A stretch of 39,969 nucleotides of DNA from Phycisphaerales bacterium (GTDB lineage: Bacteria; Planctomycetota; Phycisphaerae; UBA1845), in contig JABFSN010000046.1 of the NCBI GenBank assembly GCA_013140575.1, positions 1 through 39,969 on the forward strand, written 5' to 3'. Position numbers and translations under genes: made by a program. Under the pieces are notes generated by a model. It made no database searches and was not told where the DNA came from. It saw nothing but the letters and a program-made list of their open reading frames with translations. Position 1 is the first letter of the stretch; each line of letters starts with the position of its first letter. This document shows positions 5,901 to 12,469 of this stretch, piece after piece.

Positions 5901-7334
5901 CTACATGCGGGAGCGGGCGTCGGCGCGGGCGTATTGGACGGCGCGCATCAGGGCGCGGGCTTTGTTGAAGGTTTCGGCGTATTCCCTTTCGGGGATGGAA
6001 TCGGCGACGATGCCGGCGCCGGCCTGGATGCAGCCGCGGCGACCGTCGAGGACCATGGTGCGGATGGCGATGCACAGGTCCATGTCGCCGAGGAAGCTGA
6101 TGTAGCCGATGGCGCCGGCGTAGATGCCGCGGGCGACGGGCTCCAGTTCGGCGATGATTTCCATGGCCCGGATTTTGGGGGCGCCGGAAACGGTTCCGGC
6201 CGGAAACGTGGCGGCGAGCAGATCGAACGCATCACGATCGGTGCGGAGCATGCCCTCGACGTTGGATACGAGGTGCATCACGCGGGAATAGCGTTCGATT
6301 TGGAGCATGTCCGTCACGGCGATGGAGCCGGGGCGGCACACGCGGCCGATGTCGTTGCGGGCGAGATCGACGAGCATGATGTGCTCGGCGCGTTCCTTGT
6401 GGTCGGCGCGTAGTTCGTCGGCCAGGGCGCGATCGAGTTCGGGCGTGGCGCCGCGGGGGCGGGTGCCGGCAAGCGGGCGGGTGGTGACGCGGCGGCCGTT
6501 CAGCTTGACGAGCATTTCGGGTGATGAACCCAGGACGTTCAGGCCGTCGAGATTCAGGTAGTACATGTAGGGCGACGGGTTGGTGACGCGCAGGGCGCGG
6601 TACAAATCGAGGGGCGGGACGGGCAGGTCGAAATGAAAGCGCTGGGACAGGACGACCTGGAAGACGTCGCCGGCGAGGATGTAGTCCTTGGCGCGGGCGA
6701 CGGCGCGGATGAATTCGGATTCGGTCATGTTGGATTGGAAGGGGACGTCGGCGGCGGGCGGCTCGTCGACGGGACCGCGCGGATCGTCATTGCCGGGTTC
6801 GCAATCGGCGAGTGCGCGGACGATTTCGGCGATGCGATCGTGCGGGCGGTCGCAGCCGTACAGCAGGATGTGAACGACTTCGTGGGGGTGGTCGATGACC
6901 AGTATTTCGCCGGGGAACATGAAATAGACGTCGGGGTGATTCAGGTCGTCGGGCTTGTCTCGCGGAACGGATTCGAAACAGCGGACGACGTCGTAGCCGA
7001 AATAGCCGACGGCGCCGCCGGGAAACGTGGCGATGGGCGGTGCGTCGTTGTAGACGGCGAGCATGTCGCGGAGCGCGGCGATCGGGTCGCCGGTGGAGCG
7101 TTGCGTCATGGCGCCGACATCGATGGTGATCGAATCGCGTTTACTCTTCAGAACGGCGAACGGGCGGGCGCCGAGAAATGAATAACGGCCGGCGGCGCCG
7201 TGGGCTTCCAGCGATTCATACAGGAACGCGTGGGGTTCGTTGGGATACAGCCGTTGGAAGACGGTCAACGGGACGGCCCGCGTCAGGACGCGGCGGTGCA
7301 CGGGGGGCAGGCCGCGTGGAACGCGTTCGATCAT
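5901..7334 (-). CDS. trpE: Anthranilate synthase component I
   Basis: Converts chorismate to anthranilate, using ammonia from a TrpG partner, in the first committed step of tryptophan synthesis. The 477-aa product has the chorismate-binding signatures: LAGTRPRG, DELRADHKERAEHIMLVDLARND, the YSRVMHLVSNVEG segment, FPAGTVSGAPK and GIYAGAIGY, and it ends with QAGAGIVADS and EREYAETFNKA. An N-terminal YESLEAHG segment corresponds to the region that binds feedback tryptophan. The ATG at 7334 overlaps the aroF stop as ATGA, which fixes the start; the frame stays open further upstream only by chance. It is the last gene of the trp operon. No trpG is fused to it or adjacent, so the glutaminase subunit must be elsewhere. 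Confidence 0.95.
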   Translation of the reverse strand: MIERVPRGLPPVHRRVLTRAVPLTVFQRLYPNEPHAFLYESLEAHGAAGRYSFLGARPFAVLKSKRDSITIDVGAMTQRSTGDPIAALRDMLAVYNDAPPIATFPGGAVGYFGYDVVRCFESVPRDKPDDLNHPDVYFMFPGEILVIDHPHEVVHILLYGCDRPHDRIAEIVRALADCEPGNDDPRGPVDEPPAADVPFQSNMTESEFIRAVARAKDYILAGDVFQVVLSQRFHFDLPVPPLDLYRALRVTNPSPYMYYLNLDGLNVLGSSPEMLVKLNGRRVTTRPLAGTRPRGATPELDRALADELRADHKERAEHIMLVDLARNDIGRVCRPGSIAVTDMLQIERYSRVMHLVSNVEGMLRTDRDAFDLLAATFPAGTVSGAPKIRAMEIIAELEPVARGIYAGAIGYISFLGDMDLCIAIRTMVLDGRRGCIQAGAGIVADSIPEREYAETFNKARALMRAVQYARADARSRM

Positions 7335-8356
7335 GTCGCGACCTTTTCTCCGCGGCGGACGGCGTGGGCGATGGTGCGGAGGTCGTCCATCAGCTCCGCG
7401 AACATGGGCGGGGTGAGCGCTTGCGGGCCGTCGGACAGGGCGCAGGCGGGGTTGGGGTGGACCTCGACGATGACGCCGTCGGCGCCGGCGGCGATGGCGG
7501 CGCGGGCCATGGGGATGACCAGGTCGCGCCGTCCGACGGCGTGGCTGGGATCGACGATAATGGGCAGGTGGGACATTTTCTTGATCTGCGGCACGATGCT
7601 GATGTCCAGCGTGTAGCGCGAGTAGTCGCTGAACGCGCGGATGCCTCGCTCGCACAGGACTACCTGGCGGTTGCCCTCGGCCATGATGTACTCGGCCGCG
7701 AGCAGAAACTCCTCGAGCGTGGCGGACATGCCGCGTTTTAGTAGAACGGGTTTGGGCGATCGTCCGGCGCGGCGGAGCAATGAATAGTTCTGCATGTTGC
7801 GGGCGCCGATCTGGATGACGTCGACGCTGGCCTCGACGAGGTCGAAACTTTCCACGTCCATAACCTCGGACACGACGGGCAGGTTGGTCTCGCGGCGGGC
7901 GCGTTCCAGGATTTTCAGGCCCGGCGGGCCCAAACCCTGAAACGAATAGGGCGACGATCGCGGCTTGTAGGCGCCGCCGCGGAGCATGTCCGCGCCCAGT
8001 TCCTTGACGATGCGGGCGGTGTCGATGGTCTGGTCGGCCGATTCGACCGAACAGGGACCGGCGATGACGGTGATGCCCTCGCCGCCGATCTCGACGCCGT
8101 TGACGCGGACGACGGTGTCTTCCGGCTGCATTTCGCGGCTGGTCAGTTTGTAGGGCTTGGTGACGCGGATGATGTCCACGACACCGGGCAGCATGGCCAG
8201 GCGTTGGGGGTCGACGGGGGTCAAATTGCCGGTGATGCCGATGGCGACGCGTGTCTGTCCGGGAATGGGGTGGGGCATCAGACCCATTTCGGAGACGGCG
8301 CGGCACACCCGGGCGACGTCGGCTTCAGACGCGTCCTTTTTCATGACCACGAGCAT
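7331..8356 (-). CDS. aroF: 3-deoxy-7-phosphoheptulonate (DAHP) synthase
   Basis: Condenses phosphoenolpyruvate and erythrose 4-phosphate, the entry step of the shikimate pathway. The 341-aa protein is of the type I-beta class: an N-terminal ferredoxin-like domain of about 70 residues (regulatory in Thermotoga-type enzymes) precedes the barrel. Barrel motifs are AGPCSVES, KPRSSPYSFQG, IGARNMQN, LLKRGM, DPSHAVGR and VEVHPNP...SDGPQ. The start at 8356 (MLVVMKK) overlaps the end of trpA by 32 bp; an internal ATG at 8344 is a less likely alternative. Its place between trpA and trpE puts the shikimate entry enzyme under the tryptophan leader. Confidence 0.93.
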   Translation of the reverse strand: MLVVMKKDASEADVARVCRAVSEMGLMPHPIPGQTRVAIGITGNLTPVDPQRLAMLPGVVDIIRVTKPYKLTSREMQPEDTVVRVNGVEIGGEGITVIAGPCSVESADQTIDTARIVKELGADMLRGGAYKPRSSPYSFQGLGPPGLKILERARRETNLPVVSEVMDVESFDLVEASVDVIQIGARNMQNYSLLRRAGRSPKPVLLKRGMSATLEEFLLAAEYIMAEGNRQVVLCERGIRAFSDYSRYTLDISIVPQIKKMSHLPIIVDPSHAVGRRDLVIPMARAAIAAGADGVIVEVHPNPACALSDGPQALTPPMFAELMDDLRTIAHAVRRGEKVAT

Positions 8357-9124
8357 GGTTCACACTCCGCGTCGCCTGTTTCAGCGACGATACCAGTTCA
8401 TCGAGCGGTTCGTGATCGCGAACGGCCTCAATGAAACGGCTGCCGACGACGACGGCGTCGGCGTGGCCGTGCAGTTGACGAATCTGTTCCGGCCGCGAGA
8501 TGCCGAAACCGACGGCGACGGGCACGGGCGACGACGCGCGGAGGGCGTCGAGCGCGGCGGTCAGTCCGTCGGGCAGGCGGTCGCGGCCGCCGGTGGTGCC
8601 GGTGACGCTGACATAGTAAACGAAAGCGGTCGATTTATCCGCAATGCGGCGGATGCGGTCGGGCGTGGAGGTGGGCGCGACCAGGTGAATGATGTGGATG
8701 TCGGACGCGCGGGCGGCGTCGATCCAGCCGTCGGCTTCGGTGATGGGCAGGTCGGGGACGATCAGGCCGACGATTCCGACGTCGCGCATGCGGTGGAATA
8801 GCCGGTCGCGATCCCATGCCAATAGCGGGTTCAGGTAGGACATGGCCACGACGGGGCGGTCGAATCGGGCGGCGCGGAGCGCGTCGAGGAGGTCGGACAA
8901 ACGGAATCCGTGGTCCAATGCGTTTTTGGAGGCGAATTGAATGGTCGGGCCGTCGGCGATGGGGTCGCTGAACGGGATGCCGATTTCGAGAATGTCGGCG
9001 CCGTTTTCGGCGAGACGGCGCATGTTGTCGATGGATGCGTCCAATGTGGGAAAACCGGCGGTCATGTAGGCGATCAGCGCGGCTTCATCGCAGGGGCGCA
9101 GCGTTTGAAACACGGATTCGAGCG

Positions 9125-9128
<4 letters not shown>
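8325..9128 (-). CDS. trpA: Tryptophan synthase alpha chain
   Basis: Cleaves indole-3-glycerol phosphate to indole and glyceraldehyde 3-phosphate within the TrpA2B2 complex. The product is 267 aa, the usual length. The catalytic region reads [15 protein letters not shown], holding the conserved Glu and Asp. Further family signatures are [32 protein letters not shown] and VVVGSRFIE. Its ATG at 9128 overlaps the trpB stop as ATGA, as is normal for the paired subunits. Confidence 0.96.
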
Positions 9129-10318
<1,190 letters not shown>

Positions 10319-10408
10319 CGTTCGAACGATCATAGGCCACCGGCGTACCAATCAGCACGTCCAGCGCCGCAACAACGACCAAAACCGACAATTGCATCAC
10401 CTATCCAT

Positions 10409-11233
10409 TCATGAATTCGCATGCCGGTCGGCGCGGGGCGACAAGCGCCCCGCGCGTTGAACGTCCGGCCCGGTCAGTTCGGCGATCTTCGCGGCCGGGT
10501 CATCGGCGGTCATCAGCGTTTCGCCGATCAGGACGGCGTCATAACCGGCGTCGCGCATTCTGGTCATGTCCTCGCGTGAATGGATGCCGCTTTCCGCCAC
10601 GGCGACGCAGTCCATTGGAATTTGGGGACGCAATCGGGTGGCCGTACCGGTATCCACGTTCAGGGTGTCGAGATCGCGATTGTTGACGCCGATGATGCGC
10701 GCGCCGGCGTCGATGGCGCGGTCCAGTTCCCGCTCGTCGTGGACCTCGACCAGCGCGGTCATGCCCGACGCGGCCGCGGCGTGGATGAATTCGCGGAGTG
10801 CGGCATCGTCGAGAATTCGGGCGATCAACAATACTGCATCGGCCCCGATGGTTTGCGATTCCTGGAGTTGGAACACATCGATCAGGAAATCCTTGCGCAG
10901 GACGGGCAGACCAACCGTGCGTTTCACGGTCGTCAGATCGGCGGCGACGCCGCCGAACCAGGTGGAATCGGTCAGGACCGACACGGCCGACGCGCCGGCG
11001 CGTTCATACACGGTCGCCACGGTCGCCGGATCGGCGTCGGCACGGATCAGGCCGCGGGACGGCGATCGGCGCTTGAATTCGGCGATGACGGACAGGCCCG
11101 GGCCGCGCAATGCCGCGGCGAAATCGCGGGGTGGCGGCAATTCCGCATCGCGCGACGCCGCCGGCGACGCACGGCGTCTGGCCGCGGCCACTTCCTCGCG
11201 CTTGCGGCGAATGATTGTTTCCAGAAGGGTCAC
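10409..11233 (-). CDS. trpC: Indole-3-glycerol phosphate synthase
   Basis: Closes the indole ring from carboxyphenylaminodeoxyribulose phosphate. The 274-aa barrel has EFKRRSPSRG (catalytic Lys), LRKDFLID, LVEVHDERELDRA, IGVNNRDLDT and VAESGIHS. There is no fused TrpF domain, and trpF is not in the cluster. The start is GTG at 11233, overlapping the trpD stop as GTGA. The last 20 residues are Arg-rich and not conserved in the family. Confidence 0.95.
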   Translation of the reverse strand: MTLLETIIRRKREEVAAARRRASPAASRDAELPPPRDFAAALRGPGLSVIAEFKRRSPSRGLIRADADPATVATVYERAGASAVSVLTDSTWFGGVAADLTTVKRTVGLPVLRKDFLIDVFQLQESQTIGADAVLLIARILDDAALREFIHAAAASGMTALVEVHDERELDRAIDAGARIIGVNNRDLDTLNVDTGTATRLRPQIPMDCVAVAESGIHSREDMTRMRDAGYDAVLIGETLMTADDPAAKIAELTGPDVQRAGRLSPRADRHANS

Positions 11234-12267
11234 GACATGGCACTCCGCGTCCCGGCGCGCAGCGCGTCCAGCTTGGCGATCGCCCGCCCGGAATCGATGG
11301 ACTGCCTGGCCAATTCCAGTCCGTCGCGAATCGATGGGGCGACGCCGGCCACGTAAATGGCGGCGGCGGCGTTCAGGACGACGATTTCGCGGCCGGGTCC
11401 CGGTTGGCCGCGCAACACCTCCTGAACGATGCCGGCGTTGACCGTCGGGCTGCCGCCGCGGAGCGCTGCGGGATCAGCACAACACAAACCCAACGATGCC
11501 GGATCGAGCCGATAGGACCGAACCCGATCGTCCACCAGCTCGGCGACGGTGGTTCGGCCGCACAACGTGATTTCATCCAGACCATCCTCGCCGTGCACGA
11601 CCATGCCCCGAACGGCGCCTAGGCGGTGCAGGACGGTCGCGACCGGTTCGGTCAGTCGTTCGTCGAACACGCCGATCAATTGCCTCTTCGCGCCGGCCGG
11701 GTTCGTCAACGGACCCACGATGTTGAATATGCTGCGGATGCCGATGTCGCGTCGCGGCTCGGCCGCGTGCCGGGCGGCCTGATGGTACATGGGGGCGAAC
11801 AGGAATCCGATGCCGATGTCGCGGATGGCGGCGGCCGTCATTTCCACGGGCATTGCCGTGTCCACGCCCAACGCTTCGAGCACGTCGGCGCTGCCGCATC
11901 CGCCGGAAACGGATCGGTTGCCGTGCTTGGCGACCCGGCAGCCGGCGCCGGCGGCCACGAATGCCGCGGCCGTCGAGATGTTGAAGGTCCCCGAACCGTC
12001 CCCGCCGGTTCCGCAGGTGTCGATTAGCGAATCGCCGTCGATGTTCAGCGGGGTGGCGTGGGCCCGCAGGGCGCGGGCGAATCCCGTGATTTCATTGACG
12101 GATTCGCTTTTCATGCGCAAGGCAACGAGCAGGCCGGCGATCTGGCCGGGTGACGCCTGTCCCGACATGATTTCGCCCGCGACATCGTGGGCGTCGCTCG
12201 CGGTTAGACTACGTCCGGAAACAACCACACGGATGGCGTCCTGGATGATTGCGGTCCGCGTTTGCAT
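11230..12267 (-). CDS. trpD: Anthranilate phosphoribosyltransferase
   Basis: Transfers phosphoribosyl from PRPP to anthranilate. The 345-aa product contains the PRPP-binding IDTCGTGGDGSGTFNIST, the KHGNRSVSGGCGSADVLEALG segment, FLFAPMYHQA, IFNIVGPLTNPA and the acidic HGEDGLDEIT. The ATG at 12267 begins MQTRTAIIQDAI, where the family normally begins. The longer open frame upstream runs back through the leader region and is not a coding extension. It is the first structural gene after the attenuator. Confidence 0.95.
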   Translation of the reverse strand: MQTRTAIIQDAIRVVVSGRSLTASDAHDVAGEIMSGQASPGQIAGLLVALRMKSESVNEITGFARALRAHATPLNIDGDSLIDTCGTGGDGSGTFNISTAAAFVAAGAGCRVAKHGNRSVSGGCGSADVLEALGVDTAMPVEMTAAAIRDIGIGFLFAPMYHQAARHAAEPRRDIGIRSIFNIVGPLTNPAGAKRQLIGVFDERLTEPVATVLHRLGAVRGMVVHGEDGLDEITLCGRTTVAELVDDRVRSYRLDPASLGLCCADPAALRGGSPTVNAGIVQEVLRGQPGPGREIVVLNAAAAIYVAGVAPSIRDGLELARQSIDSGRAIAKLDALRAGTRSAMS

Positions 12268-12294: not shown

Positions 12295-12328
12295 AAAAAA
12301 AGCCCCCGGCGTTCGTCGCCGAGGGCTT
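12295..12328 (-). terminator. trp attenuator terminator
   Basis: In the transcript, AAGCCCUCGGCG (12328-12317) pairs with CGCCGGGGGCUU (12311-12300) around a 5-nt ACGAA loop. This is a 12-bp stem with a single U-G pair. Seven U residues (12301-12295) end the structure, two of them within the stem. It lies between the leader peptide and trpD, 28 nt before the trpD start. Confidence 0.92.
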
Positions 12329-12347
12329 GGGTTCATCCGTGTGCTGG

Positions 12348-12434
12348 TTACGACGCGAGGAAACCCGGACCATCGGCGCAAGGATGATGCCAGCGCCAAT
12401 CCACCCGGGTCGGTTGCGTCGTCCAATACAACAT
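12348..12434 (-). CDS. trpL: trp leader peptide
   Basis: A 28-codon frame from ATG at 12434 to TAA at 12350-12348, with Trp (TGG) at codons 4, 13 and 15. Three Trp in 28 residues is strong enrichment, and codons 13 and 15 sit just before the alternative hairpin segments, as attenuation requires. The ATG begins six bases after the -10 box, so the predicted transcription start is the A of the ATG and the gene would be leaderless, with no ribosome binding site. The peptide presumably serves as a Trp-tRNA sensor; a separate role for the peptide or the short leader RNA cannot be judged from sequence. Confidence 0.88.
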   Translation of the reverse strand: MLYWTTQPTRVDWRWHHPCADGPGFLAS

Positions 12435-12440
12435 GCACGC

Positions 12441-12469
12441 ACGATACCGGCACGACCGGCGCCTGTCAA
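12441..12469 (-). promoter_or_regulatory. Sigma70-type promoter of the trp operon
   Basis: On the minus strand a consensus -35 box TTGACA (12469-12464) is followed by a 17-bp spacer and a -10 box TATCGT (12446-12441, four of six consensus bases). The predicted start site, seven bases past the -10, is 12434, the first base of the leader peptide ATG. Confidence 0.8.

Follow-up and report, generated by a model that had tools for sequence, protein, structure and literature searches.

The trp gene cluster trpD-C-B-A-aroF-trpE in the analysed window (the whole stretch of 39,969 nucleotides) is preceded by a short leader region. With a probability of about 0.93, we consider this region a transcription attenuator of the classical ribosome-mediated type that responds to tryptophan.

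Tryptophan leader and gene cluster

The features of the attenuator lie on the minus strand at 12469-12295; the -35 box opens this region and the U tract closes it:

12464..12469, minus strand: -35 box TTGACA (sequence)
12441..12446, minus strand: -10 box TATCGT, with a 17 bp spacer and the ATG 6 nt downstream (sequence; geometry conserved)
12348..12434, minus strand: trp leader peptide ORF, MLYWTTQPTRVDWRWHHPCADGPGFLAS and stop, 28 codons, ATG at 12434 (translation; Trp-rich frame kept in relatives)
12390..12398, minus strand: candidate stall codons Trp13-Arg-Trp15, TGG CGC TGG (sequence; aligned with WWW, WRW and WYW of relatives)
12340..12430, minus strand: 1:2 pause hairpin, predicted to form without a ribosome on segment 1 (RNA folding)
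12317..12378, minus strand: 2:3 antiterminator, CGCCGA.GGU..GGGUUU / GAACCC..GCC.UCGGCG (nascent folding, shuffles, pairing across nine leaders)
12295..12328, minus strand: 3:4 intrinsic terminator and U tract (folding; consensus fold)

This anatomy had been proposed in an earlier note on the same DNA, and its parts were all recovered. The 28-codon peptide is encoded on the minus strand and has tryptophan at codons 4, 13 and 15. It is followed by the terminator AAGCCCUCGGCG-acgaa-CGCCGGGGGCUU with a U7 tract ending at 12295 (-23.6 kcal/mol). The three alternative pairings, 1:2, 2:3 with a nested helper helix, and 3:4, fold as had been claimed. The position of the -10 box, just 6 nt from the ATG, had been missed.

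The trpD start (12267) lies 27 nt beyond the U tract. The genes follow in the order trpD-C-B-A-aroF-trpE:

11230..12267, minus strand: trpD, first gene of the cluster (NCBIfam TIGR01245, 404.7 bits)
10409..11233, minus strand: trpC (NCBIfam NF001377, 308 bits)
9125..10351, minus strand: trpB (NCBIfam TIGR00263, 639 bits)
8325..9128, minus strand: trpA (NCBIfam TIGR00262, 237 bits)
7331..8356, minus strand: aroF-type DAHP synthase (NCBIfam NF006421 / TIGR01361)
5901..7334, minus strand: trpE, last trp gene of the cluster (NCBIfam TIGR00564, 545.6 bits)

The extension of the cluster through aroF (DAHP synthase) and trpE had also gone unnoticed before. The trpC-trpB junction (10409-10351) does not contain trpF; in most relatives about 0.6 kb or more separates the two genes.

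Folding of the leader and predicted mode of regulation

The window leader has a folding z-score of -4.2, and none of 200 dinucleotide shuffles is equally stable. Without a ribosome, the 1:2 hairpin folds first (-43.8 kcal/mol for the RNA up to leader nucleotide 100), followed by the terminator. A stalled ribosome was modelled by letting the free RNA begin roughly 15 nt downstream of the first base of codon 13 or codon 15. In this model segment 2 is freed, as proposed earlier, and in the nascent RNA ending with segment 3 the 2:3 helix and its nested helper form together at -27 to -29 kcal/mol, a fold better than that of about 98% of shuffles. The 2:3 antiterminator thereby captures the 5' arm of the terminator. 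In silico, the antiterminator and the terminator are mutually exclusive, and the former is freed by a ribosome on the Trp codons; the effect is weak in the leaders L006 and L034 of relatives. With segment 4 fully transcribed, the terminator wins at equilibrium even if the ribosome is stalled (-35.8). Antitermination would thus have to depend on kinetics, which is usual for attenuators of this class and is assumed in the standard model.

From the observed parts and folds, and from their conservation described below, the following regulation is predicted. RNA polymerase would start at the leader ATG or a few nucleotides from it, with the ribosome loading on the 5' end of the RNA in the absence of a Shine-Dalgarno site. 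If Trp-tRNA is in short supply, the translating ribosome would stall at Trp13/Trp15 and cover segment 1. Segment 2 could then pair with segment 3, the 5' arm of the terminator, before segment 4 exists, and the polymerase would continue into trpD-C-B-A-aroF-trpE, which is the predicted extent of the transcript. When Trp-tRNA is plentiful, the ribosome would reach the stop codon and cover segment 2, the 3:4 hairpin would form, and transcription would end near 12295. If the leader is not translated, 1:2 would form first, so that 3:4 would again terminate transcription.

Leaders of relatives with the same type of TrpD

A TrpD search over 114 genomes of the order yielded 12, including that of the window, that share the same TrpD type at E <= 1e-93. 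These TrpD proteins form one clade (SH-aLRT 92), separate from the main TrpD clade of the order. Trp leaders were found in 8 of the 11 relatives (9 of 12 with the window); the layout is retained and the peptides differ. No recognisable leader was observed in L032 and L004, which belong to the same clade, and the available sequence of L037 is too short for a judgement. The Trp runs of the nine leaders are WRW, WWW, WRWFW, WW, WYW, WRW, WSWW, WWW and WWW, and their terminators range from -15 to -27 kcal/mol. The segment capturing the terminator 5' arm begins just past the modelled ribosome and is GCCGG.GGU-like in most leaders.

In eight of the nine leaders, the folding energy of the stalled nascent RNA ranks among the top 6% of its shuffles. 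The 2:3 helix is weak in L006, where 12% of shuffles do equally well; in L034, with 5.5%, it is moderate. In the alignment of the nine leaders 87.7% of cells in this helix are paired, compared to 30-58% when the arms are slid, so the register is specific. Such a comparison had been proposed in the earlier note, together with a test for covariation. The former bears out the attenuator reading, since in the relatives the sequence has diverged but a Trp-rich frame, a terminator and an antiterminator are retained. The latter was positive for the terminator, in whose consensus fold three pairs have changes in both partners; the 2:3 helix also has three such pairs, but the shuffle control of its covariation is modest (23/500).

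A terminator and antiterminator pair would look the same if the ORF were incidental and the sensor were not the ribosome but, for example, a T-box, a TRAP-like protein or some other aptamer. However, what the leaders have conserved is the run of Trp codons and its spacing from segment 2, and no conserved aptamer was observed. No Rfam family, T-box included, reaches the gathering score in the window, and no T-box is present among Rfam matches to E 10 in the leader. We consider such a sensor extremely improbable and retain ribosome-mediated attenuation.

In the same TrpD clade outside the order no attenuators were found, save a look-alike in bacterium FK4.bin83 (L126). There, MIGFSLSVISENNNWWWYRTRC and a terminator upstream of trpD form a further candidate trp attenuator.

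Covariance model and a second type of trp leader

A covariance model built from the nine leaders was run over the order. It recovered all nine with scores of 67-85 bits and blindly found a tenth leader in G314 (52 bits, E 2.9e-9). The latter encodes MKRRNLSNFTWWWPTDIDAGG and precedes trpD-C-B-A-aroF-trpE, with a TrpD that is only 41% identical. Weaker matches in G012 and G013 were situated directly upstream of trpE. Inspection of these two and of four similar trpE genes revealed six WWW leaders before trpE (L302-L307). Their terminators run directly into the U tract in all cases but L304, where the U tract lies a few nucleotides further. In L305-L307 the capturing segment would be GGGUGGGCC-like, against GGACCCACC, and the sequence differs from that in the window. 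Judging by these sequences, the WWW leaders of six further genomes of the order are a second, sequence-unrelated type of candidate attenuator. In a phylum-wide search with the model outside the window's genome, the best matches were at 7e-6 or weaker and had no Trp frame in the loci that were inspected, which do not include three of them.

Under identical criteria, a Trp leader followed by a terminator was found in 7 of 9 attenuated trpD leaders, none of 27 other trpD regions, 1 of 30 standard trpE regions, and none of 37 cysH upstream regions. The single trpE match overlaps an apparent rpmB reading frame, and we judge it to be due to chance. The candidate L172 (VWVWW before trpE) was discarded because of its overlap with an apparent ribosomal L28 (rpmB) frame.

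In this order such a leader is absent from the majority of trpD and trpE genes, and thus attenuation is not essential there. This would agree with the hairpin being a constitutive terminator or pause site, the Trp-rich ORF a product of chance, and the trp genes controlled otherwise or not at all. However, independent leaders with differing peptides keep the Trp codons, the promoter spacing, the antiterminator and the terminator. Moreover, the blind match of the model is situated before trpD, and a second type of attenuator occurs at trpE. A constitutive terminator is thus very unlikely, and attenuation by the translating ribosome remains the preferred reading.

Cysteine leaders and promoter geometry

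The window's genome was scanned for the pattern TTGAC-N-TANNNT-N5-8-ATG, which produced 35 matches compared to 6 in the reversed control. Among them were the trp leader and, upstream of cysH (phosphoadenylyl-sulfate reductase), an ORF MLMRQGFGGQVARWVDTACICCCPSRESS with a terminator. With a ribosome on the Cys run, the segment CCUGACGGU can pair with the terminator arm ACCGCGGG.

Homologues of cysH are present in 62 of 114 genomes of the order. Under strict criteria, poly-Cys leaders followed by terminators were found in 26 of 37 tested cysH upstream regions and in none of 66 trp regions. Examples are CCCCCCC and CACCCCCC; the loci are L272 / L199 (G000:C75:54706 and downstream), L273-L301 and L311-L318. 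In the cross-control Trp leaders occur at trp genes and Cys leaders at cysH, with none swapped. The poly-Cys leaders before cysH are likely cysteine attenuators, mostly leaderless or nearly so. The Cys-like ORF of L208 was dropped, as no terminator follows it.

The box TTGAC(A/T/C) with a spacing of 17-18 bp is found in 15 of the 16 Trp leaders. A promoter was recognised for 15 Trp and 30 Cys leaders; in 13 and 26 of them, respectively, the -10 box is followed after 4-10 nt by the first in-frame start codon. At this distance the peptides are predicted to be leaderless or nearly leaderless. This suggests leaderless initiation as the favoured means of synchronising the ribosome and the polymerase in these leaders.

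Comparison with known attenuators

The window leader shares with the trp attenuators of E. coli and other enterobacteria a leader peptide with Trp codons, four alternative segments, a U-tract terminator and predicted kinetic control by the ribosome. The differences from E. coli are that trpD comes first, the predicted start is near-leaderless, and the cluster includes DAHP synthase and has trpE as its last trp gene. The sequence is unrelated to the Rfam family RF00513 Trp_leader (12.5 bits compared to the gathering score of 41). In the trp attenuators of Corynebacterium and Streptomyces (PMC1262725), UGG runs in a short leader and a GC-rich terminator are found as well, whereas the phylum, operon order and sequence differ.

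In S. meliloti the 5' end of the terminated leader RNA coincides with the trpL ATG, so the leader peptide is leaderless (PMC7298713); here this start site is predicted. The S. meliloti leader precedes the single-gene operon trpE(G) of an alphaproteobacterium, whereas here it precedes a six-gene cluster in Planctomycetota. The terminated product of the window leader would be, by its geometry, a small leaderless mRNA like rnTrpL. Attenuation might then be accompanied by an action of this RNA or its peptide in trans, as with rnTrpL/peTrpL of Sinorhizobium meliloti (PMC7298713). However, the peptide diverges strongly outside the Trp codons, and we consider this addition to the attenuator improbable.

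Mycobacterial leaderless short ORFs with poly-cysteine are Cys-responsive attenuators, according to the title of the study (Canestrari 2020, cited in PMC9031893). As far as that title goes, they parallel the cysH leaders in being leaderless and having Cys runs, and differ in phylum and target; the cysH leaders described here have an intrinsic terminator.

Phylum and implications

The 16S rRNA of the genome contains the exact EUB338-II target and has two mismatches to PLA46 and PLA886. The EUB338-II probe marks Planctomycetes. This supports the assignment of the genome to Planctomycetota, which the earlier note had called probably planctomycete-like.

Attenuators have been described in Proteobacteria and Actinobacteria (PMC1262725, PMC4833913). 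The author of the earlier note was not aware of a case outside the well-studied phyla. This is borne out in part, as no amino acid attenuator in Planctomycetes was found in the open literature searched; subscription surveys, such as the broad one of Lopatovskaya 2010, are outside this scope. The mechanism itself is standard and the leaderless form is known elsewhere (S. meliloti trpL and, by title, the mycobacterial poly-Cys ORFs), and it is the lineage that is apparently new. The range over which ribosome-mediated attenuation has been described, mainly Proteobacteria and Actinobacteria, would thus widen to include Planctomycetota, where the leaders are of more than one independent type. Additional interest comes from the lineage, from the companion cysteine system and from the leaderless geometry being the rule.

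We lean, with some reserve, towards the view that ribosome-mediated attenuation with leaderless peptides is a general amino acid sensing device of this order, used widely for cysteine at cysH and for tryptophan at two unrelated operon types, and that transcription and translation are hence physically coupled there. Since the mechanism needs the first ribosome close behind RNA polymerase, such leaders provide a genomic test of this coupling. Planctomycetota were once claimed to keep transcription and translation apart, which is debated (the Gemmata debate). The 5' leaders of uncultured planctomycetes become readable as an annotation of what the cell senses.

Other genes with similar promoters

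In the window's genome, TTGAC promoters were also observed in front of small HTH-like genes of 70-76 aa, at a distance of 6-8 nt (L187, L190, L194, L200, L211). Most of these have an inverted repeat similar to GATATC/GATATA, and the HTH-like genes are possibly autoregulated. A leaderless ORF (M..PS.GRP..) is present in three nearly identical copies that share the same promoter (L201, L203, L189) and represent a repeated element in the genome.
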